A stretch of 59,857 nt of DNA from Alicyclobacillus mali NBRC 102425 (GTDB taxonomy: Bacteria > Bacillota > Bacilli > Alicyclobacillales > Alicyclobacillaceae). The notes beneath the pieces are model-generated. The model was given only the letters and a program-made list of their open reading frames with translations. It was not told the origin of the DNA and ran no database searches. A program made the position numbers and the translations under genes. Below are positions 1-10,833 of the stretch, one piece after another (position 1 is the stretch's first letter; each line of letters begins with the position of its first letter). The stretch covers positions 1 to 59,857 of the forward strand of contig NZ_BCSG01000028.1 of assembly GCF_001570745.1 (NCBI RefSeq), written 5' to 3'.

Positions 1-141
1 AAAAGGCTCGCGTTAAAAAAGCATCATCAACTGCCATTCAACCTGTCACATAACCGATTGTCGTTCTAGACCGTTACACGAGCGTTACTTTCACATCCAC
101 GGCGAGGAGAACTTGCTTGCGAGAAAGGCGGCGAATGTTCG

Positions 142-1452
142 ATGAGCGGCCCTGCAATTCACGAAGCCCGAACCGACAAACGTCCGGTGTTCATACTGAT
201 TCCGGGTTTAGGAATGAACTGTTCGGCCTACAGCGATCTCGCGCCCTTCTTATCGTCACACGGGCATGTCGTCTATTACGATTTTCCAGGACACGGAAGT
301 CGCACACAAGTGGAATTTAAACGAAATGTGGATTGGGGCTCTCTCATTAGCGATGTCATTTCTTATCTGCGCAATCTCAACCAACCTCCCTATCACGTGA
401 TTGGCCACGGGTTCGGCGGTACCACGGCTTTGCGGCTGGCAAAGTTCATCCCGGAGTGGATTGCCACATTGACAATTCTTTCGCCGCACGCTTCTCATGG
501 AGCGAAAATGGGGACTGAATTCGTTGAAATTATCAATCAAATCAACACAACCCAAAGCCTAAAGCCAATGTGGGATATGCTTGCGCACGTCTTAGTGCGC
601 AACCCAACTGCTCCCTATCTTGAACATATTAAGAAAATGAACGCTTCGGTAAATCCGCATTTTTACGTAAAACTTTTGAAACTGGCGTATGAAACCTCAA
701 ACCCAAGGGATTTTGCCGGTGTCGATCGCCCGACTCTCTTTATTCAAGGAGAATTTGATCCCCTAGCAGTCATCCATCTATCTCGGTTGCTAGTAAACCA
801 GCCGAAGGCGAAAGTTTGGACATGCCCAAACGCTTCCAATCTCGTTCACATGGAACAGCCAGAAGCGGTCGCCCGTGAGATTCTCAAATTCGTATTGGGT
901 TCTGAGGCAGATCGTAAATTTTCCGACAATTTATCTACCGTGAATCGATATCTGATTCATAATGATGATGATGTAAAAAAACACATCTACGTCCATTGCC
1001 TCAACGAATTCTATGTCACAGTTAATCACGATACCATTCGACACGGATGGGAAAGGCGCCACGCGCAGATACTCATGCTTTATCTCGCACTCCACAGACG
1101 TGCCTCTCGAGATACACTTTGCGAGGTCATTTGGCCAGACGAAGACCCAGCCAAATCAAGACTCCGGTTGCGGGTTTCACTCCACTACCTGCGCGCGCTT
1201 CTTGGGGAACACGGAGATATTCTTCATACCACGAAGGATTTTGTGGAATTGAGAGGACACGTCGTGTGTGACGTGGCAGATTTACTTGACAGGCTGAAGG
1301 TGCTTCGGGAGATGGATTCCGAAACCCGCGCAATTTCGGCAAAAGAACTTGTACGGCAACTCCCCCTTCGAATCATGCCGAGCATGTACCACCCATTCGC
1401 CATTCGAATTCAGCAAATGTTAGAATTTGAAATCGAACACCTGATCGACTAG
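142..1452 (+). CDS. Alpha/beta-hydrolase-fold protein fused to a SARP/OmpR-type winged-helix domain, probable one-component regulator
   Basis: The protein has 436 residues. Residues ~10-255 read as an alpha/beta-hydrolase: VFILIPGLGMN near the oxyanion region, an elbow at VIGHGFGG, the acid Asp in GEFDPL and the His in NLVHMEQPE. The elbow should be G-x-S-x-G but is G-H-G-F-G, since the codon at the nucleophile position is GGG (Gly), so hydrolysis is unlikely. Residues ~290-385 resemble the winged helix of SARP/AfsR activators (ERRHAQILMLYLALHRR, then IWPDEDPAKSRLRLRVSL). Only a short helical tail follows, not a full BTAD domain. The ATG is preceded by a purine-rich GAAAGGCGG. The gene is clearly more AT-rich than its neighbours, suggesting transfer. 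Inference: the hydrolase fold senses a small ligand and the C-terminus binds DNA. The target is unknown. Confidence 0.85.
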   Translation: MSGPAIHEARTDKRPVFILIPGLGMNCSAYSDLAPFLSSHGHVVYYDFPGHGSRTQVEFKRNVDWGSLISDVISYLRNLNQPPYHVIGHGFGGTTALRLAKFIPEWIATLTILSPHASHGAKMGTEFVEIINQINTTQSLKPMWDMLAHVLVRNPTAPYLEHIKKMNASVNPHFYVKLLKLAYETSNPRDFAGVDRPTLFIQGEFDPLAVIHLSRLLVNQPKAKVWTCPNASNLVHMEQPEAVAREILKFVLGSEADRKFSDNLSTVNRYLIHNDDDVKKHIYVHCLNEFYVTVNHDTIRHGWERRHAQILMLYLALHRRASRDTLCEVIWPDEDPAKSRLRLRVSLHYLRALLGEHGDILHTTKDFVELRGHVVCDVADLLDRLKVLREMDSETRAISAKELVRQLPLRIMPSMYHPFAIRIQQMLEFEIEHLID

Positions 1453-1488: not shown

Positions 1489-2442
1489 TCACCCAACTGA
1501 CGGTACGCGCATCCACCGCCTGACCTCTCCGTCCATCGCCGAGATCACCTCGCCGCGGCTCTCCATCAAATCGAGGTGGCCCTGCACCTCAGACAGCCCG
1601 AGCATGACCACTGGTCCCTCCAGCTTCGGGAAGAGACGGCGGGTAATTTCCGCCACGGTCGTCGCGCCCTCAGCCAGCGCTTGGCGGATCTGCACGCAGC
1701 GCGACTCGTGTTCGGCGAATCGCCTGTCGATGAGGGCCCGATGGTCCGCAAACGGATCTCCGTGACCGGGATACACCCGGACGAGATCCAGGGCGCGGGT
1801 GCGCTCCATCGATGCGCGATAGTCGAGCAGCGGTTTCGGGCGAGCGGCGGACGGATCGACCGGCGGCTCGACAAACGCGTTCGCCGAGATGGTGGGCAGC
1901 AGGTGATCGCCCGCGATGGCGTGACCGTCGGGATCCACCATGAAGATGTCGGTGCGGCTGTGGCCGGGTACGTACATCACTCTCCAGTCGCGCCCGCCCG
2001 CGCGGACCACATCGCCATCGCGAACGTAGACGACGTCGCGCCAATCGTACTTTTGCATCCAGATGCGCGACTCCCAACGGACGTCCGATCCGGCCTCGCG
2101 GGCAAATGCCGCGTAAAACGCGTCGAAGCGACGATGTTCTTCTTCGCCGAGCTCGACGATGCGACGCGCCGCCTCGGAGACGACGACGCGCGCGCCGGAA
2201 GCGCGCTGAACAGCGGAAACGCCTCCGATGTGATCCAGATGCATATGCGTCACGACAATCTGCTCGATGTCTGCGAACCGCACCCCGTGCCGCGCGAGTC
2301 CCTCCTCGAGCTGCACAAGGGACTTGGGAAACGGCAGCCCTGAGTCCACCAGCGTGATCGGATCGCCCAAGATGAGGTACGCGTTCACGTGATCTTCGGG
2401 ATACGGCGTCTCAATCCGCACCCGCTCGATGCCCGTCTGCAT
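1489..2442 (-). CDS. MBL-fold metallo-hydrolase
   Basis: This 317-residue protein has the metallo-beta-lactamase metal-binding motif THMHLDHIGG (HxHxDH), a later GHSRTD and a GDH, so two metal ions are expected. The C-terminal ~80 residues form an extra helical region (GATTVAEITRRLFPK) of the winged-helix type seen in LACTB2/glyoxalase-II-like MBL proteins. Substrate cannot be told from sequence; a thioester, lactone or similar ester is plausible. Two ATGs lie close together, at 2448 and 2442. The GAGGG element abuts the first and is correctly spaced from the second, so 2442 is preferred. The gene stands alone, convergent with the hydrolase/regulator fusion. Confidence 0.85.
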   Translation of the reverse strand: MQTGIERVRIETPYPEDHVNAYLILGDPITLVDSGLPFPKSLVQLEEGLARHGVRFADIEQIVVTHMHLDHIGGVSAVQRASGARVVVSEAARRIVELGEEEHRRFDAFYAAFAREAGSDVRWESRIWMQKYDWRDVVYVRDGDVVRAGGRDWRVMYVPGHSRTDIFMVDPDGHAIAGDHLLPTISANAFVEPPVDPSAARPKPLLDYRASMERTRALDLVRVYPGHGDPFADHRALIDRRFAEHESRCVQIRQALAEGATTVAEITRRLFPKLEGPVVMLGLSEVQGHLDLMESRGEVISAMDGEVRRWMRVPSVG

Positions 2443-2529
2443 GGCCATCCCTCGGTTCTAAGTTGAAGTTCTCTTTCAATCTTACCACGCTTTGCCGGAG
2501 AACGCGCATGAATATTCAAAGATGAAATC

Positions 2530-2557
2530 GCGTTGTGCCCATGCAACCGCATGGGCA
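2530..2557 (-). terminator. Hairpin after the transglutaminase gene
   Basis: TGCCCATG (2536-2543) pairs perfectly with CATGGGCA (2550-2557) around a 6-nt loop, just downstream of the 2576 stop on the minus strand. There is no strong T-run, so its role as a terminator is moderately supported. Confidence 0.45.
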
Positions 2558-2575
2558 GATGGAGAGCCAAAAGCG

Positions 2576-4603
2576 CTAACGGGTTCGCGCCACTCCCTCG
2601 CGAGAAGCCGCCTCAAGCCACTGGACGAGCGTCGCCGAGAGATCTCGCCAGCCTGCGGATTTGGACGCCTCCCATTCGCGACCGTACAGGTTCGCCTCGG
2701 CGGCGCGAAGCCAAGGCCCGAAAGCATCCGCTGCGCCGGCGCGTTCGGCGAGCGGCCGCAAGTCGCGCAGCGTGGCGCTCGGAGGCAGGCCGAGCGCCGC
2801 CCGGGCCTCGCCGACGAGCCGCAGGAACGCGTCGAAGTCGCCCTGCCGCGCTTTGCGGCGCCGCCGGACCCGTCTCACGGCCCAAAGGGCGCCCAGCGCC
2901 GCCGCAACGCCACCGAGCGCGACGGGCGCCACCACGCGCACCTCGCGCCTGACGACCGGCAAAGATGCGGGCGCTTCGCCGTGACGGCTGGATCTCGGCT
3001 GCTTCCCAGTCGCGCTGCGCCCGGGAACCGAGCTCGGCGCGAACGTCATGGCGAAGCCAGGCGTCGCGTCGAAGGGGATCCAGCCGAACCCCGGAAAATA
3101 CACCTCGATCCACGCGTGCGCGTCTGCCTCCGACACCACGTACGTGTCCGGGGCCATCTCGTTGTCCGCGCCGACGGCGAACCCTGTGACGAAGCGCGCA
3201 GGCACGCCGAGCGCGCGCAGCATCACCGCGGCGGCGCTCGCGAAGTTGTCGCAGTACCCGCGGTGCGTGTCAAAGAGAAACTGCGCGACGTAGTCCTCTC
3301 CTGGCTGTGGCACCGGCACGTCCGACACGTCGTACCCCTCGTGAGCAGCGAGATATTGGATGATGGCGTTGACCATCTCGTACTCCGTCACCGCGTGCGC
3401 GTTCGTTACAATGCGCGCTGCCAACTGCCTGACGCTCGCCGGCAACTCGGCGGGCAACTGCGTGTCGACTGCCCGAGTGCTGGCCGGAATGTCGCGCCGC
3501 ACGTCGGCAAAAGGTACGCTCAGTGAGGCGAGGCGTGCGTACGGGTTGTTCGGGACAGCCACCTCCAGCTCGTACGATTCCCCCGGGCCGAGCGGCGCCG
3601 CCTTGATGTTGCCCTGCAAGGTGTCGATGGCGAACTCGTTCCCGTACAGGCCCGGCAGCCGCAGGACGCGATCGACCGCATACGGCGCGAGGAGGTCCGA
3701 CGTGTTGACGGCGCCTTTCACCGACACGGCGACGTCCATCGTGCGATAGGGGAGACGCGCGAACGGCAGACCGCCCGGGAGAGGCTGGCCCACGGCCGCG
3801 GTGGCGACGTCCGATCCGTCGAGTGGGACGGACACCCAGCCCTGCCCCGTGTAGTCGGACAGCACCTGTCCGCGGAGATCGAGCGGGATGGGCGCTCGAA
3901 CTTCGAGGATCGGCTGCGGATCCGTCACGAGCGAGCCGCCGAGATGGCTGTCGTCCAGGCTGTAGCCCGTGCGCGCGGGCGTCTGCGGCACGAGCGACAT
4001 CACGATGCGCGCCACGCTCGGCGCAAGGGCACCTTTCGGCGCGAGGAACGCGCATAATGCGCCGCACAATAGAACCCCCGCGCCCACCCTCGCGACGCGT
4101 CGCCAGTCGGGCTCTCCCGCCTCCCCCTCCCAGCGACCGTATGCAAAAAGGGCCAGCATGACGGCGAGACAGACAAGCTCCAGTCCCACGCCCGCCACCG
4201 GATGTGCCAGGGAGACTGCCACAAGCCCCGTCTGAGCGACGGCGTTGTAGAGGAGCCACGTGAGAGGGCGCCGATACGCGTACCGCACGAGCGCCATCGC
4301 CGCCAGTCCAGCCAGGCTGAAGGCGTACAGCCGCCACACGGTGTCTGCGACACTCCACGGCCATCCGGCAACACGGGCCGCCTCGGCTACAGCGGCAGCT
4401 TGGACAGCCGCGAGGGCCATCCACGCGGCGCCGCGCTGCCAGCGATTCGCCAGCGCGGCGGCAAGACACATGGCAAGCCAAAACGCCCCCACCTCGAGCG
4501 CCGCGCGCCGAGCGAACACCCCTGCCACAGGCGACAGCGCGATCACGACCCACGCGAAACAGAGGAGGTTTCGCACCAGACGCCGAGTAAGCTGATGAGC
4601 CAT
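2576..4603 (-). CDS. Membrane-anchored transglutaminase-like protein (TgpA type)
   Basis: The protein has 675 residues. The N-terminal ~200 form several hydrophobic helices. An extracytoplasmic region follows, containing a transglutaminase core with Cys451 (HRGYCDNFAS), His496 (DAHAWIEVYF) and Asp512 (WIPFDATP). One more membrane segment (VVAPVALGGVAAALGAL) and a cytosolic DUF4129-like tail end the protein. The ATG at 4603 is chosen because GGAGGGAGC lies just upstream and it leaves a 19-nt gap to the DUF58 gene; a longer reading would overlap that gene by 68 nt. It is third in a MoxR-DUF58-transglutaminase operon, a widely conserved trio. Its substrate in Gram-positive bacteria is not established. 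Confidence 0.9.
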   Translation of the reverse strand: MAHQLTRRLVRNLLCFAWVVIALSPVAGVFARRAALEVGAFWLAMCLAAALANRWQRGAAWMALAAVQAAAVAEAARVAGWPWSVADTVWRLYAFSLAGLAAMALVRYAYRRPLTWLLYNAVAQTGLVAVSLAHPVAGVGLELVCLAVMLALFAYGRWEGEAGEPDWRRVARVGAGVLLCGALCAFLAPKGALAPSVARIVMSLVPQTPARTGYSLDDSHLGGSLVTDPQPILEVRAPIPLDLRGQVLSDYTGQGWVSVPLDGSDVATAAVGQPLPGGLPFARLPYRTMDVAVSVKGAVNTSDLLAPYAVDRVLRLPGLYGNEFAIDTLQGNIKAAPLGPGESYELEVAVPNNPYARLASLSVPFADVRRDIPASTRAVDTQLPAELPASVRQLAARIVTNAHAVTEYEMVNAIIQYLAAHEGYDVSDVPVPQPGEDYVAQFLFDTHRGYCDNFASAAAVMLRALGVPARFVTGFAVGADNEMAPDTYVVSEADAHAWIEVYFPGFGWIPFDATPGFAMTFAPSSVPGRSATGKQPRSSRHGEAPASLPVVRREVRVVAPVALGGVAAALGALWAVRRVRRRRKARQGDFDAFLRLVGEARAALGLPPSATLRDLRPLAERAGAADAFGPWLRAAEANLYGREWEASKSAGWRDLSATLVQWLEAASREGVARTR

Positions 4604-4622
4604 CGGTGCTCCCTCCTTTTCC

Positions 4623-5738
4623 TCACGAACTGCGGAAATGGGCCGCTTCGCGCGCACCTTTGCGCCCCGCGTCCACAATGGCCCAGACATCCACCGCTGA
4701 CACCGTCACCGCGCGTGAGTCCACCGTCCGCGCAATGGCGTCGCACGCGCGCGCCGTCACCCATATGGTCGCGCCCCATTCACCTCGCAGCTCTGCCCGG
4801 GGTACGGCGGCAACGGTGGCGGATGCGTTCACCGATGCCAGCGCGCGCCCCACCTCGTCGAACGTCCTGCACCGGCGCCACGTGGCCCGACCGTCGGTAG
4901 AGGCGGGCGCCAGGCACTCGACTGATTGCCCCTGCCGCTGCCAGTGAACCACCAGAGAAAAGGCCACGGATAGTACCTGTTCCGTCACGAAGACGTCGTT
5001 TTGCTCCGCCAGAGGCACCACGAGCCACGGACGCGGCCTATCGAAGGCAAGTTCTCTCGCGTACAAGTTCCCCATCCGAAGTGACGTGGGCCAGTGGATG
5101 AGACTCCGCCGCTCACCGGTTCGAAAGGGTACCAAACCGCCGGTCGGAACCGTCCTCGCATCATCCCGTGCCCGTTCACAAGCCCGCACCTGCCGCTCGA
5201 CCTCGCGCGTCCACTCTCCCGCCGGCAACACCTTGGGGTAAACCACCATCACACCTTCGGCTGGGAGCCGCCATTCGACAAAAAGGAGGCCGAACGCATC
5301 GCTGAGCCGGACGCACACGCCGCGCAGACGGTATTGGCCGCGGCGGAGCGAAGACGCCTCCATCTGAACCTGGTATCCGCCGGCCCGTTTGAACGACGCG
5401 ACGCCGCCAAGGCGATCGTACGGAACGCGGTGTTCCTCCCACTCCAGTGCGATCTCGCCGCGGCGCCTCCACAATCCGAACCCGAACGCGCGGCCCGAGA
5501 TGTCGACCAGCACACGCGCGCTGTCACCCGCGGACGCGCGCGCCGGAAGATCAACCTGCGCGCTCGAGATGGCCATCGCACACACCGCAAAACATAGTTC
5601 GTACAAACTGAGCGCGTCCATGGCGCCTGCAAGCGCACGCACGCCCACCGCGCCTGTTCCGAGCGCGAGCGACGTCACAAACGCACTGGCAAGGATGAGC
5701 GCGGCTACGAGCCATGACCTGCGCAATGCGATGCTCAT
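4623..5738 (-). CDS. DUF58-domain protein
   Basis: The protein has 371 residues. Two N-terminal hydrophobic segments (LVAALILASAFVTSLALG and a second near residues 30-60) anchor it. The conserved DUF58 block follows: a beta-rich part, then FRTGERRSLIHWPTSLRMG, the family's Y/F-x-x-G-D/E-x-x-R-x-I-x-W signature. DUF58 proteins have a von Willebrand A-like fold and occur next to MoxR ATPases. The ATG overlaps the moxR stop (ATGA), indicating translational coupling. Confidence 0.88.
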   Translation of the reverse strand: MSIALRRSWLVAALILASAFVTSLALGTGAVGVRALAGAMDALSLYELCFAVCAMAISSAQVDLPARASAGDSARVLVDISGRAFGFGLWRRRGEIALEWEEHRVPYDRLGGVASFKRAGGYQVQMEASSLRRGQYRLRGVCVRLSDAFGLLFVEWRLPAEGVMVVYPKVLPAGEWTREVERQVRACERARDDARTVPTGGLVPFRTGERRSLIHWPTSLRMGNLYARELAFDRPRPWLVVPLAEQNDVFVTEQVLSVAFSLVVHWQRQGQSVECLAPASTDGRATWRRCRTFDEVGRALASVNASATVAAVPRAELRGEWGATIWVTARACDAIARTVDSRAVTVSAVDVWAIVDAGRKGAREAAHFRSS

Positions 5739-6724
5739 CGCGCGTCACCGAGCTTCGGCGTCGGCACTTGGTGCAAGACCTCCTCCAGGAGCCCATCCGA
5801 CGTCGCTTCCACCCATGGATCCCGAGCGCGGTGAAGCCGATGCCGCCATACGTGTGGGACGAGCTGGCGCAGATCGTCCGGAACCACGTACGGGCGGCCA
5901 CGTGTATAGGCGCGCGCTTTGGCTGCGCGAAGCAGGGCCAGGAGCGCGCGGGGGCTTGGCCCCATCGGCACGTGCGGGTGGTCGCGAAGCGCTTGGGCGA
6001 GGTTTACAGCGTAGCGAAGGATCGCCGGATCCGCGTGAATTTCGTCCGCCTCGCGCTGCCATGTCAGCACGTCCGATGGCGCCGCCAGAGGCTTTAGATC
6101 GTCTAATTGGGCTTGACCGCCTCCCGCCGCGAGCATGCGGATTTCTTCTTCTGCGGAAGGATAGCCAAGTGCGATGCACATCAGGAACCGATCCATCTCC
6201 GACTCGGGCAGTGGATGGGTCCCTTCGAATTCCCGAGGATTTTGCGTGGCAATGACCCAAAAGGGCCGCGGAAGCGAATGCCGCTCGCCGTCCAACGTCA
6301 CGCAGCCCTCCTCCATGGCCTCGAGAAAGGCGCTTTGCGCCCGCGGTGACGCGCGGTTCAGTTCGTCCACCAGCACCATCTCGCTGAAAATGGGCCCTTT
6401 GTGCGTTTCGAACGCGCCCAACTGTTGGTTGTACATGACGTACCCCAGGATGTCCGCAGGGAGAAGATCCGACGTGCACTGCACGCGGCTCAGGTTCAGC
6501 CCCAGGAGGCGTGCAAGGGCCTTGGCAAGCGTCGTCTTGCCCACGCCTGGAACGTCCTCGATCAACACATGACCGCCGGCGACGAGCGCGCAAAGGGCGA
6601 GATCGATGGCCTCTTCGTGGCCGAAGACCACGGACGATATGACATCACGCAGGCGCGCAAACGCGGGGGTCATCGGTTCCAGTTCTCCCTTGAGCTGACG
6701 CGAAGCCAACGTCATATTCCCCAT
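5735..6724 (-). CDS. MoxR-family AAA+ ATPase
   Basis: The protein has about 329 residues. It has Walker A DVPGVGKTTLAK, Walker B VLVDELNRASP, sensor-1 region FWVIATQNP and a C-terminal lid (GPSPRALLALLRAAKARA), all typical of MoxR. These ATPases are thought to act as chaperones assembling or activating partner complexes, here presumably the DUF58 and transglutaminase proteins encoded downstream. The start is uncertain: ATG codons occur at 6784, 6724 and 6715. A GAGGGA element adjoins 6724 and is well spaced from 6715, while the extra 20 residues from 6784 are not conserved-looking. It is first in the operon. Confidence 0.9.
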   Translation of the reverse strand: MGNMTLASRQLKGELEPMTPAFARLRDVISSVVFGHEEAIDLALCALVAGGHVLIEDVPGVGKTTLAKALARLLGLNLSRVQCTSDLLPADILGYVMYNQQLGAFETHKGPIFSEMVLVDELNRASPRAQSAFLEAMEEGCVTLDGERHSLPRPFWVIATQNPREFEGTHPLPESEMDRFLMCIALGYPSAEEEIRMLAAGGGQAQLDDLKPLAAPSDVLTWQREADEIHADPAILRYAVNLAQALRDHPHVPMGPSPRALLALLRAAKARAYTRGRPYVVPDDLRQLVPHVWRHRLHRARDPWVEATSDGLLEEVLHQVPTPKLGDAR

Positions 6725-6784
6725 TCCCTCGTCTTCTCTTCTTCCCGATTCTAACAAATCGACTGCCGTCCGCATAGCTCGCAA

Positions 6785-8347: not shown

Positions 8348-9376
8348 TCACCCGAGCGGATTGGGAAAGATGACGCGAACACGCGTACCTTGCCCAGGCT
8401 GACTGTCGATCTCGAGCACCCCATTCAGGGCAGACGCGCGCTCGCGCATGTTCTTCAACCCGTAGCCGGGTAGCAGCTTGATTTGCTCCGCGTCGAAGCC
8501 ACACCCGTCGTCGCGGATTTCCACTTCGCACATCTCGGCGCACGTCATGTGAATCTGAATGTGTCGAGCCCGCCCGTGTGAAATCGCGTTGTGCACCGCC
8601 TCTTGCACGATGCGGTACAGGTGGATGGCGATGCCGCCGAGATCGCCGGCCGGCCACTCCTTGTTCATGGTGACGTCGATCCGGCAGCCGCTTGTCGACA
8701 TTTCCTCGCTCAGCATGCGGATGGCCGCGCTAAGGCCGAGATCGTACAGGAGCGACGGATACAAGGTATGCGACAGCGCGCGCACCTCTTGCGAGCAGCG
8801 CTTAATCTGCGCGCGCAGGTCGTCGAGCGCCCTGTGCAGGCGAGACGGGGCCTGGCGCTTGAGGTGTTCCATACCGAGATCGACCGCGTACAGCGACTGG
8901 CTCACCCCGTCATGCAGCTCTTGGGAGATGCGCTTGCGCTCCTGTTCTTGCACCTCCAGCGTCATGCGGTTCAGCCGCGCCCGCATCTCCAACTCTTTCG
9001 CCTGCCGCTCGCGCGTGACGTCGCGGATGACGATTACCATGTCACGGCTCGTCTCGCCGCCAGGCGCTTCGAGGAACGTGCGGCTCATGCCAACCGGGAC
9101 ATAGGCGCCTTGCTTCGTCGGCAATTCAGACTCAAAGTACGAAACTTCGCGCTGCCCGGCGAGGAAACACCGCTCTTCACCGGCGCCCACCTCGCGCGCT
9201 TGGCAATACCGGCAATACGGAATCCAATCGCCCAGTTCCCAGCCCGTCATACGCGTCGCGGATGGATTGATGAACACAATCACGCGGTCTTTGTCCATGA
9301 CGATGATCCCGTCGTTCAGGGCATTGAACAGGTGTCGCAGCCGTTCCGGGCTGTAGCCCATGGTTCTGGTGACCAT
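8348..9376 (-). CDS. PAS-domain sensor histidine kinase (HisKA_3 / NreB-DegS class) with a cysteine cluster
   Basis: The cytoplasmic protein of ~342 residues has no membrane segment. An N-terminal PAS domain (LFNALNDGIIVMDKDR) contains C-x2-C-x11-C within PYCRYCQAREVGAGEERC. The H-box is RKRISQELHDGVSQSL and the HATPase G-box is PGYGLKNMRERASAL. This matches NarL-type partner kinases such as NreB, whose PAS domain binds an Fe-S cluster through four cysteines; here three are visible. The ATG at 9376 has GAGGTTGGTGGGG upstream; a TTG at 9385 is the alternative. It pairs with the response regulator 20 nt downstream and lies 32 nt behind the MBL-rhodanese gene. Confidence 0.9.
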   Translation of the reverse strand: MVTRTMGYSPERLRHLFNALNDGIIVMDKDRVIVFINPSATRMTGWELGDWIPYCRYCQAREVGAGEERCFLAGQREVSYFESELPTKQGAYVPVGMSRTFLEAPGGETSRDMVIVIRDVTRERQAKELEMRARLNRMTLEVQEQERKRISQELHDGVSQSLYAVDLGMEHLKRQAPSRLHRALDDLRAQIKRCSQEVRALSHTLYPSLLYDLGLSAAIRMLSEEMSTSGCRIDVTMNKEWPAGDLGGIAIHLYRIVQEAVHNAISHGRARHIQIHMTCAEMCEVEIRDDGCGFDAEQIKLLPGYGLKNMRERASALNGVLEIDSQPGQGTRVRVIFPNPLG

Positions 9377-9417
9377 CCCCACCAACCTCGCCAGCGCGTT
9401 TCCTCTACCTTACGACA

Positions 9418-10833
9418 TCACGCCTCAACAGGGAAACCCTTGCCGCGCCACGCCTCGTATCCACCCAGCATGTTGCGAACATCCTCCACGCCGTGAGCCC
9501 GAAGTAGGCTCGCGGCGATGGCGGATCGGCCGCCCGTCCGGCAATACACGTAGACCGATGCCTCGCGCGGTACCTCTTGGATGTGAACCGCGAGCTTCGA
9601 GAGCGGAATGTGGTGAGCCTGCGGCAGGTGGCCCCCCGCCCACTCGTCGGCGTTGCGGACGTCCAGAAGCCAGATGTCCTGCTGCGCAAGCGCTCCGCGC
9701 ACGTCGTCGGGTGTCACGTTGACGTAGGACGCGACGTCGTCGGCCGCTGCGCCCTCCACCTCGGCCGGATCGGCCCAATCCGCCACGTCATCAATGCCGA
9801 TGGAGCGAAGCGCGCGGATCACGTCGGGCGCTATTCCGTCCGCAGCCAGCAGATGGATATGCCGATCGGCAGGAAGGAGCCACCCCGCCCACGTGACAAA
9901 CGACTTGTTCCAGGGTATGTTGAGACTTCCGGCCAAGTGGCGTTTTGCAAACGCATCCGCCGGGCGCACATCCAACACGATGCCGCTCGCTCGCCACGCG
10001 CGAAGCGCTTCCGGCGACAGCGCCGCCCGCGCGGGCGCGCTCAGTTCTTTGAGCAGACGCGGCCCGTTCTTATTGACCTGCTTCATGCGGGCGAAGTAGA
10101 CCGGCGCTTCGGGTTGCCCAGCGAGCAGGGCCTGGACGAAAGCGTCCTCGTCCTGGTGCTGAAGGGCCCAGTTCACGAGCTTCTCATAGCCAACTGTGGA
10201 CGACGGGACGGCGCCGAGCGCCTTGCCGCACGCGCTGCCCGCGCCGTGGGCCGGCAGCACCTGGACGTGATCCGGCAGCGCCTCAAATTTGCGCAGGGAG
10301 CGGAACATCTGGCGAGCGAGCGCCTCCGAACTGCCGCTCTCGCCGGCCACGCGCTCGAGCAGGTCCGGCCGCCCGACGTCTCCCACGAAGACGAAGTCAC
10401 CGGAAAAAAGCGCCATGGGCACGTCCGGCGAAGTTTTGCCGTCGTACAGGAGGTACGAGACGTGTTCCGGCGTATGCCCGGGCGTATGCATCACCACAAG
10501 CCTCACATGGCCAAAGCGAAGCTCGTCGCCGTCCCTCAACAGCCGGTGTGGATACGCCTGGACGTACGCGGACTTCCACTCCGGCGGTCCTTCGTCTGAC
10601 ACGCAGATGGCCGCGCCTGCGCCACCCGCCAGTTCCCGGGCCCCGGAGACAAAATCCGCGTGAATGTGTGTCTCGAGCGCAGCGACGATGCGAAGCCCCT
10701 CTCGCTTGGCCGTGTGCAAATACGGCTCGACGTCGCGGGCGGGATCGATCACGCAGGCCTCGCCTGTTTCCTGGCAGCCGACCAAGTAAGAAGCGTGCGC
10801 AAGTGCTTCATCGTAGAAGCGGCGAAGGTACAT
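9418..10833 (-). CDS. MBL-fold / double rhodanese protein, persulfide dioxygenase-like
   Basis: The protein has about 471 residues in three parts. An ETHE1-like MBL domain comes first, with THIHADF near residue 58, then HTPGHTPEHV and GDFVFVGDVGRPDL. Two rhodanese domains follow. The first (IVLDVRPADAFAKRHL) lacks a cysteine at the active-site loop; the second has YCRTGGRS with Cys ~431. Relatives oxidise glutathione or low-molecular-weight persulfide to sulfite, or transfer sulfane sulfur. The ATG at 10833 fits the GAGAGG spacing better than that at 10842. It follows the DUF1641 gene by about 40 nt, and the SQR gene lies before that, so it probably handles persulfide made by SQR. Confidence 0.9.
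   Translation of the reverse strand: MYLRRFYDEALAHASYLVGCQETGEACVIDPARDVEPYLHTAKREGLRIVAALETHIHADFVSGARELAGGAGAAICVSDEGPPEWKSAYVQAYPHRLLRDGDELRFGHVRLVVMHTPGHTPEHVSYLLYDGKTSPDVPMALFSGDFVFVGDVGRPDLLERVAGESGSSEALARQMFRSLRKFEALPDHVQVLPAHGAGSACGKALGAVPSSTVGYEKLVNWALQHQDEDAFVQALLAGQPEAPVYFARMKQVNKNGPRLLKELSAPARAALSPEALRAWRASGIVLDVRPADAFAKRHLAGSLNIPWNKSFVTWAGWLLPADRHIHLLAADGIAPDVIRALRSIGIDDVADWADPAEVEGAAADDVASYVNVTPDDVRGALAQQDIWLLDVRNADEWAGGHLPQAHHIPLSKLAVHIQEVPREASVYVYCRTGGRSAIAASLLRAHGVEDVRNMLGGYEAWRGKGFPVEA

Follow-up and report, generated by a model that had tools for sequence, protein, structure and literature searches.

Introduction

Activators of the SARP type, such as AfsR (8hvr/8k60), EmbR (2fez/2ff4) and PimR, are the closest described relatives of the DNA-binding half of the protein considered here. 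Both share a winged-helix fold of the OmpR type, and both are associated with direct repeats of 11-bp period, formed by heptamers with 4-nt spacers, at a near-fixed distance from the -10 hexamer. In published SARP promoters, the direct repeats are spaced 11 or 22 bp, the 3' repeat stands 8 bp from the -10, and AfsR is bound as a side-by-side dimer (PMC10936776). PimR needs two heptamers, has 4-nt spacers in its operators and has pimM as its unique target (PMC5930380). The family described below differs from these activators in the C-terminal rather than N-terminal position of its SARP part, in the shortness of its helical BTA part, in a gap to the -10 of 9-10 bp instead of 8 bp, in its occurrence in Bacillota and in its neighbours, which are not antibiotic genes.

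The other half belongs to the alpha/beta-hydrolases, a fold that serves as signal receptor in the plant proteins D14, KAI2 and GID1; the likeness to these is one of fold only. D14 and KAI2 keep the catalytic triad and GID1 loses its His; to our knowledge, none of the three is fused to a DNA-binding domain. RsbQ of Bacillus subtilis is a bacterial signalling protein of hydrolase fold, and one that our searches match in structure, but it is a separate protein with an intact triad that acts through a phosphatase. One-component regulators in which an enzyme-derived sensor gates a DNA-binding domain are familiar from MocR/GabR, ROK and BirA, whose sensors have folds other than that of the hydrolase family.

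We describe the fusion as a one-component regulator in which an enzyme-derived sensor is joined to a SARP-like effector. Among the literature titles and abstract openings surveyed, which covered part of the matches, there was no description of a hydrolase-SARP arrangement. If our reading is true, the alpha/beta-hydrolase joins the enzyme folds that bacteria have reused as transcriptional sensors, and a SARP-type promoter exists in Bacillota, with a testable operator of defined spacing.

The fusion gene and its predicted fold

The window, meaning the whole stretch of 59,857 nucleotides analysed, is one entire contig of Alicyclobacillus mali NBRC 102425. An open reading frame on its forward strand at 142-1452 (P0001, 436 amino acids) encodes a pseudo alpha/beta-hydrolase domain (178-897, about residues 13-252), a SARP-type winged helix-turn-helix (982-1251, about residues 281-370) and C-terminal helices that the models present as a short remnant of a BTA-like domain (1270-1446, about residues 377-435). 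The Pfam family Abhydrolase_6 covers residues 18-245 with an E-value of 3.3e-21, and Trans_reg_C covers residues 312-364 with a weak match under the Pfam cut-off. The fusion of the two domains is real, and its SARP part lies behind the hydrolase, at the C-terminus and not at the N-terminus.

Structure prediction of both halves returned a hydrolase fold and a SARP-type winged helix, and no unrelated C-terminal fold was seen. In the full-length model (10 sequences, pLDDT 79.6, pTM 0.57), a loose linker (261-278) joins the hydrolase fold to the winged helix. The best PDB matches of this model in Foldseek are hydrolases, including 3om8, D14/KAI2, RsbQ and an enol-lactonase; strigolactone/karrikin receptors and RsbQ are prominent among them, in a structure library rich in such entries. 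The AF2 model of residues 278-436 reaches a pLDDT of 93.5 and a pTM of 0.87, and its Foldseek ranks 1-6 are all EmbR/AfsR chains with probability 1.00, in alignments spanning 162-170 columns, followed by a next match with an E-value of 0.19. A sequence profile of this part also ranks AfsR (8hvr, E 0.0027) and EmbR (E 0.012) at the top, though weakly. These predictions bear out the proposal, made from the sequence of the window in the original prediction, that the C-terminal 150 or so residues resemble the winged helix of SARP/AfsR activators. Of 10 C-terminal pieces from family members, 7 match Trans_reg_C and none matches the Pfam BTAD family. The helical part past the winged helix is short across the family and shortest in the window protein, where helices are few, most relatives being some 45 residues or more longer in this region.

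Metallo-beta-lactamase fold, transglutaminase-like, DUF58-like and MoxR-like ATPase genes, recognised by eye, occupy high-GC sequence beyond the regulator at 1489-6784, all directed leftward.

Catalytic residues across the family

The nucleophile elbow of the window protein reads G88-H89-G90-F91-G92, with G90 encoded by GGG at 409-411, precisely as the original prediction had it. That prediction had also taken the acid and His positions to be retained, which is correct for the acid, Asp206 (757-759), but not for the His. The residue it had in mind is H236, whereas alignment to the solved relative 7dq9 and the family alignments both place Asn233 (838-840) in the catalytic-His column; a retained catalytic His is thereby ruled out. 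Position 236, three residues further on, is variable (F 21, H 5, Q 4, and V, A and Y once each; n = 33).

Is the altered elbow peculiar to this strain? Among 33 full-length family members, the window protein included, the nucleophile column holds Gly in 31, Ser in one and Pro in one; the His column holds Asn in 29 and Q, Y, H and F once each; and the acid column holds Asp in 32 and Asn in one. The sole Ser-bearing member (L061) has Gln in its His column and adjoins a Gly member in a midpoint-rooted tree with several long branches, whose root serves for drawing only. The sole member to keep His (L008) is the one with Pro in the nucleophile column, where its motif, GPGMG, is shifted by one residue. 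Control hydrolases were taken from 48 loci outside the fused family that came from the same searches, 45 of which had a distinct hydrolase reading frame; they carry Ser in 45/45, His in 44/45 and Asp in 42/45. The same states recurring across 33 proteins, against controls that keep Ser, indicate that residue loss is a property of the family and not a mutation of the strain. The family alignment thus shows the Ser-to-Gly change to be conserved, with Ser kept in just one member, and rules out a sporadic mutation, while the controls rule out a Gly elbow as a general trait of hydrolases in these bacteria. Four of the loci (L082, L084, L085 and L086) came from a scan with patterns containing HGFG; leaving them out gives Gly in 27/29 and Asn in 26/29, the search profiles other than that scan having been derived from Gly-bearing members. 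The same biased scan yielded a lone Myxococcales hydrolase frame (L087, 7785-8699) with a Gly elbow, a kept His and no DNA-binding part.

A complete triad is found in none of the 33 full-length members, a loss shared with the NDRG family, eukaryotic proteins in which we know of no DNA-binding domain. In NDRG, every triad residue has been replaced, helices block the pocket and the hydrolase fold is non-enzymatic; the same source describes non-enzymatic hydrolase folds acting through protein contacts (PMC7022630). The hydrolase domain of the fusion might similarly be ligand-free, a structural or protein-protein module as in NDRG or neuroligin, with activity set by expression or by a partner. The faster evolution of the hydrolase half would suit such a role, with a dN/dS of 0.29 against 0.18 for the DNA-binding half in the one pair compared. 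It fits less well with the retention of Asp206 in 32/33 members and of Asn233 in 29/33, which suggests that the pseudo-active site is in use, and we consider a ligand-free module unlikely.

Distribution of the family

The fusion was found in 7 of 59 genomes of the order of the window, in at least 13 of 398 in a sample of the class (best four candidates per genome scored; G265 has it only as a broken copy) and, at full length, in at least 2 of 398 in a sample of the phylum (G000 and G116; best three candidates per genome scored). Members also occur in 20 of 100 genomes of genus g28, which we infer to be Paenibacillus-like, some of them with broken copies only. Within the class of the window, the distribution is patchy. 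Named members include Alicyclobacillus sendaiensis, A. ferrooxydans (two copies), Alicyclobacillus sp. SP_1, Ornithinibacillus caprae, Gracilibacillus kekensis, Paenibacillus sp. PL91 and Tuberibacillus calidus; at locus L076, the regulator gene lies at 8536-9981 on the reverse strand.

The full-length orthologue of A. sendaiensis is 71% identical to the window protein, and comparison of the two whole genes gives a dN/dS of 0.25. The corresponding value for the next gene is 0.115, and the regulator gene has a GC content of 48% in a contig of 63%. Together with the broken copies in some g28 genomes, these figures might be read as the marks of a sporadic or decaying gene, horizontally acquired by this strain and drifting. 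However, the frame is open and under purifying selection, the same residue states recur across 33 proteins, and the operator described below is conserved at the A. sendaiensis orthologue, so that decay is largely refuted and we regard it as very improbable.

Some genomes carry the regulator in unusual arrangements: G884 has tandem copies (L115 and L120), and G265, G868 and G832 have split or truncated ones, that of G868 being adjoined by transposase-like reading frames recognised by eye.

A paired repeat beside the regulator gene

Upstream of the regulator gene, at 72-89, the window contains CGTTACACGAGCGTTACT, two heptamers 11 bp apart. Read leftward, on the reverse strand, it becomes AGTAACGCTCGTGTAACG, a putative paired operator that fits the type TGTAACG-N4-TGTAACG. 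It is the sole exact copy of CGTTACN5CGTTAC in the 2.79-Mb genome and the sole match in the window at up to one mismatch, and A. sendaiensis has the same paired repeat at the same position. Of 18 genomes searched, 8 (G000, G009, G035, G222, G407, G375, G870 and G885) carry a single exact copy, located at the regulator gene. In G116, one copy is at the regulator and another elsewhere; G016, G048 and G856 contain the pattern solely away from the regulator, and the remaining six (G031, G018, G077, G140, G139 and G859) lack it in exact form. The pattern written backwards, used as a control, is itself present in 8 of the 18 genomes, with 16 copies in G031 and nine in G016; copy number therefore proves nothing, and it is position that counts. 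A looser pattern, which misses the window box because the last base of that box is T, has 0-8 copies per genome in 22 genomes, and its backward control is usually commoner, so that loose matches away from the regulator are best taken as background.

The loci were also scanned with a matrix that we set manually on the basis of sites known beforehand. The top-scoring site adjoins the regulator, or a gene next to it, in 18 of 20 loci; L075 (G016) and L116 (G859) have no convincing operator by this matrix. Judged by plain consensus against 100 resamplings per locus, with the window represented by its first 10 kb, p is at most 0.02 in 6 of 17 loci, 0.05-0.14 in five and above 0.2 in six. The sites of L023, L072, L084 and L085 do not exceed resampled sequence on this measure and rest on the -10 test below.

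Could the repeats belong to another regulator of the OmpR/PhoB type? PhoP boxes are direct repeats of TTHACA, which GTTACA repeats at an 11-bp period resemble. A PhoP regulon would be expected to give many sites, whereas the exact site is found once per genome, at this patchy regulator gene, in the eight genomes listed above; at L071, L072, L082 and L023, moreover, the box adjoins another adjacent gene, outside the promoter of the regulator. It is thus highly improbable that the operator serves such a protein rather than the fusion.

Promoter geometry

The -10 test comprised 14 sites, one per clade, and the -10 played no part in their choice. Near-copies and extra sites (A. sendaiensis, L021, L069, L070, the other g28 copies and Tuberibacillus boxes 2 and 3) were left out, as were L075 and L116 for want of a convincing box. 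A hexamer with A at position 2 and T at position 6 stands at an offset of 9-10 bp in all 14, with a mean match to TATAAT of 4.43/6; in 2000 shuffles, which preserve base composition only, the best of 36 offsets did not exceed 3.71. In all 21 sites inspected, a hexamer resembling the -10 begins 9 or 10 bp past TGTAACG-N4-TGTAACG, although it is weak in a few, such as CACTGT in L024 and GACAAT in the window (57-62, reverse strand), which lies 9 bp past the operator and points left off the contig. The same 14 sites give no -10 peak in the opposite (CGTTACA) direction. With an 11-bp period and a gap of 9-10 bp from heptamer end to -10 in 14/14, the family comes near the 8 bp of published SARP promoters. 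The suggestion that the regulator acts on its own promoter or on neighbouring genes gains support from this putative SARP-type promoter, which stands beside the gene and appears to be aimed at the neighbour.

Alternatively, the fusion protein might repress its own gene, or purely autoregulate it, instead of activating the neighbour. In many loci (the window, A. sendaiensis, genus g28, L073, L076, L085, L117 and L077), the box also stands 36-152 bp ahead of the regulator start. Yet the fixed -10 spacing is found only in the TGTAACG direction, which leads away from the regulator in those loci, and the boxes of L071, L072, L023, L082 and L084 are outside the promoter region upstream of the regulator start. 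We hold repression or pure autoregulation to be improbable. Activation toward the regulator itself, in the CGTTACA direction, where g28 has TACAAT-like hexamers, was dropped because no family-wide -10 position exists that way.

Proposed mechanism

We favour the reading, with a probability of roughly 0.7, that the window protein acts as a one-component activator of transcription that senses through a pseudo-hydrolase. What speaks for it in the sequences is the family-wide loss of catalytic residues, the SARP-like fold model, the recurrent putative operator, its fixed spacing to the predicted -10 and the direction of that promoter; binding, activation, a ligand and a role in sessile lifestyle are inferred. 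The N-terminal hydrolase, stripped of nucleophile and His, would have been kept as a sensor, a small molecule binding its pseudo-active site around Gly90, Asp206 and Asn233. The signal would then travel via the linker and alter the pairing or the DNA affinity of the SARP-like part. By analogy with AfsR and PimR, the C-terminal winged helix would bind two TGTAACG heptamers 11 bp apart, recruiting RNA polymerase to a promoter whose -10 starts 9-10 bp past them, and the neighbour would be switched on.

Genes in the direction of the promoter

What could be the target of such a promoter? In the window, the contig stops 71 bp past the operator, which is why the target gene is absent; positions 1-56 would hold the start of a leftward transcript, on the reverse strand, whose target lies beyond the contig end. 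The first 130 bases of the window have no other match in the genome, and a search for the lost neighbour via matches to contig ends found nothing. Past the operator of A. sendaiensis, a 31-aa frame preceded by an ideal ribosome-binding site (L002, 141-236, reverse strand) is a candidate target.

Elsewhere in the family, the first gene is diverse. A diguanylate cyclase of the GGDEF type comes first at both A. ferrooxydans copies and in G048; in Alicyclobacillus sp. SP_1, a small reading frame comes first and a GGDEF diguanylate cyclase follows. The antirepressor SinI is first in a Bacillaceae MAG, ahead of a SinR-like gene, and in Gracilibacillus (32.0 bits against a cut-off of 31.4). G018 has a PilZ reading frame whose start is not fixed. 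In Tuberibacillus, a Wzz gene lies about 225 bp off and is followed by an AAA_31 gene and CpsB. Paenibacillus sp. PL91 has a gene for an S-layer-homology protein in this place, G139 one for an M6 peptidase, G856 one for a protoglobin and G140 one for a secreted protein with an Ig domain; in Ornithinibacillus, a transposase-like HTH reading frame comes first.

Among 13 clade representatives whose target could be read, seven have one connected with c-di-GMP or matrix control, counting SP_1 by its second gene and Tuberibacillus by its Wzz operon. GGDEF genes number 7 to 25 in each of the eight genomes checked, which makes chance adjacency to such a gene look unlikely. A biofilm or c-di-GMP theme among these diverse neighbours is a post hoc observation. 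Tentatively, and with somewhat less than even odds, the family could consist of receptors in which a pseudo-hydrolase gates a SARP-like activator, wired in Bacilli to differing entry points of one sessile decision and answering a small molecule. The entry points would be c-di-GMP synthesis or reading, SinI/SinR, exopolysaccharide and the S-layer, and such receptors might be a counterpart of the plant hydrolase-fold hormone receptors. With an orphan receptor tied to a cyclase gene, a PilZ gene or sinI, ligand screening could find the signal that lies behind biofilm-like behaviour in these lineages.

In genus g28, a reading frame of 24-26 amino acids (MKMFFICVKKSKLEMVYLRMYIRRK type) begins 52-56 bp past the operator. 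It is clear in 11 of 15 loci scanned (L062-L065, L102, L104, L105 and L108-L111), present also in L112, extended to a 30-aa variant in L113 and diverged in L114 and L115. A purine-rich stretch resembling a ribosome-binding site precedes it in most of the loci with the peptide, and the frame is probably translated, since its substitutions look conservative. The beta-ketoacyl synthase gene that stands beside g28 copies was dropped as a target, being convergent with the regulator while the promoter points the opposite way. This convergent gene occurs in several g28 loci (L067, 9930-11120, reverse strand, and equivalents), and beyond it lies an old-yellow-enzyme-like gene, recognised by eye.

Tuberibacillus has a third strong box (L086, 6968-6985, reverse strand), with a -10 at 10 bp and no clear gene in that place; the stretch could possibly specify an RNA or a small protein.
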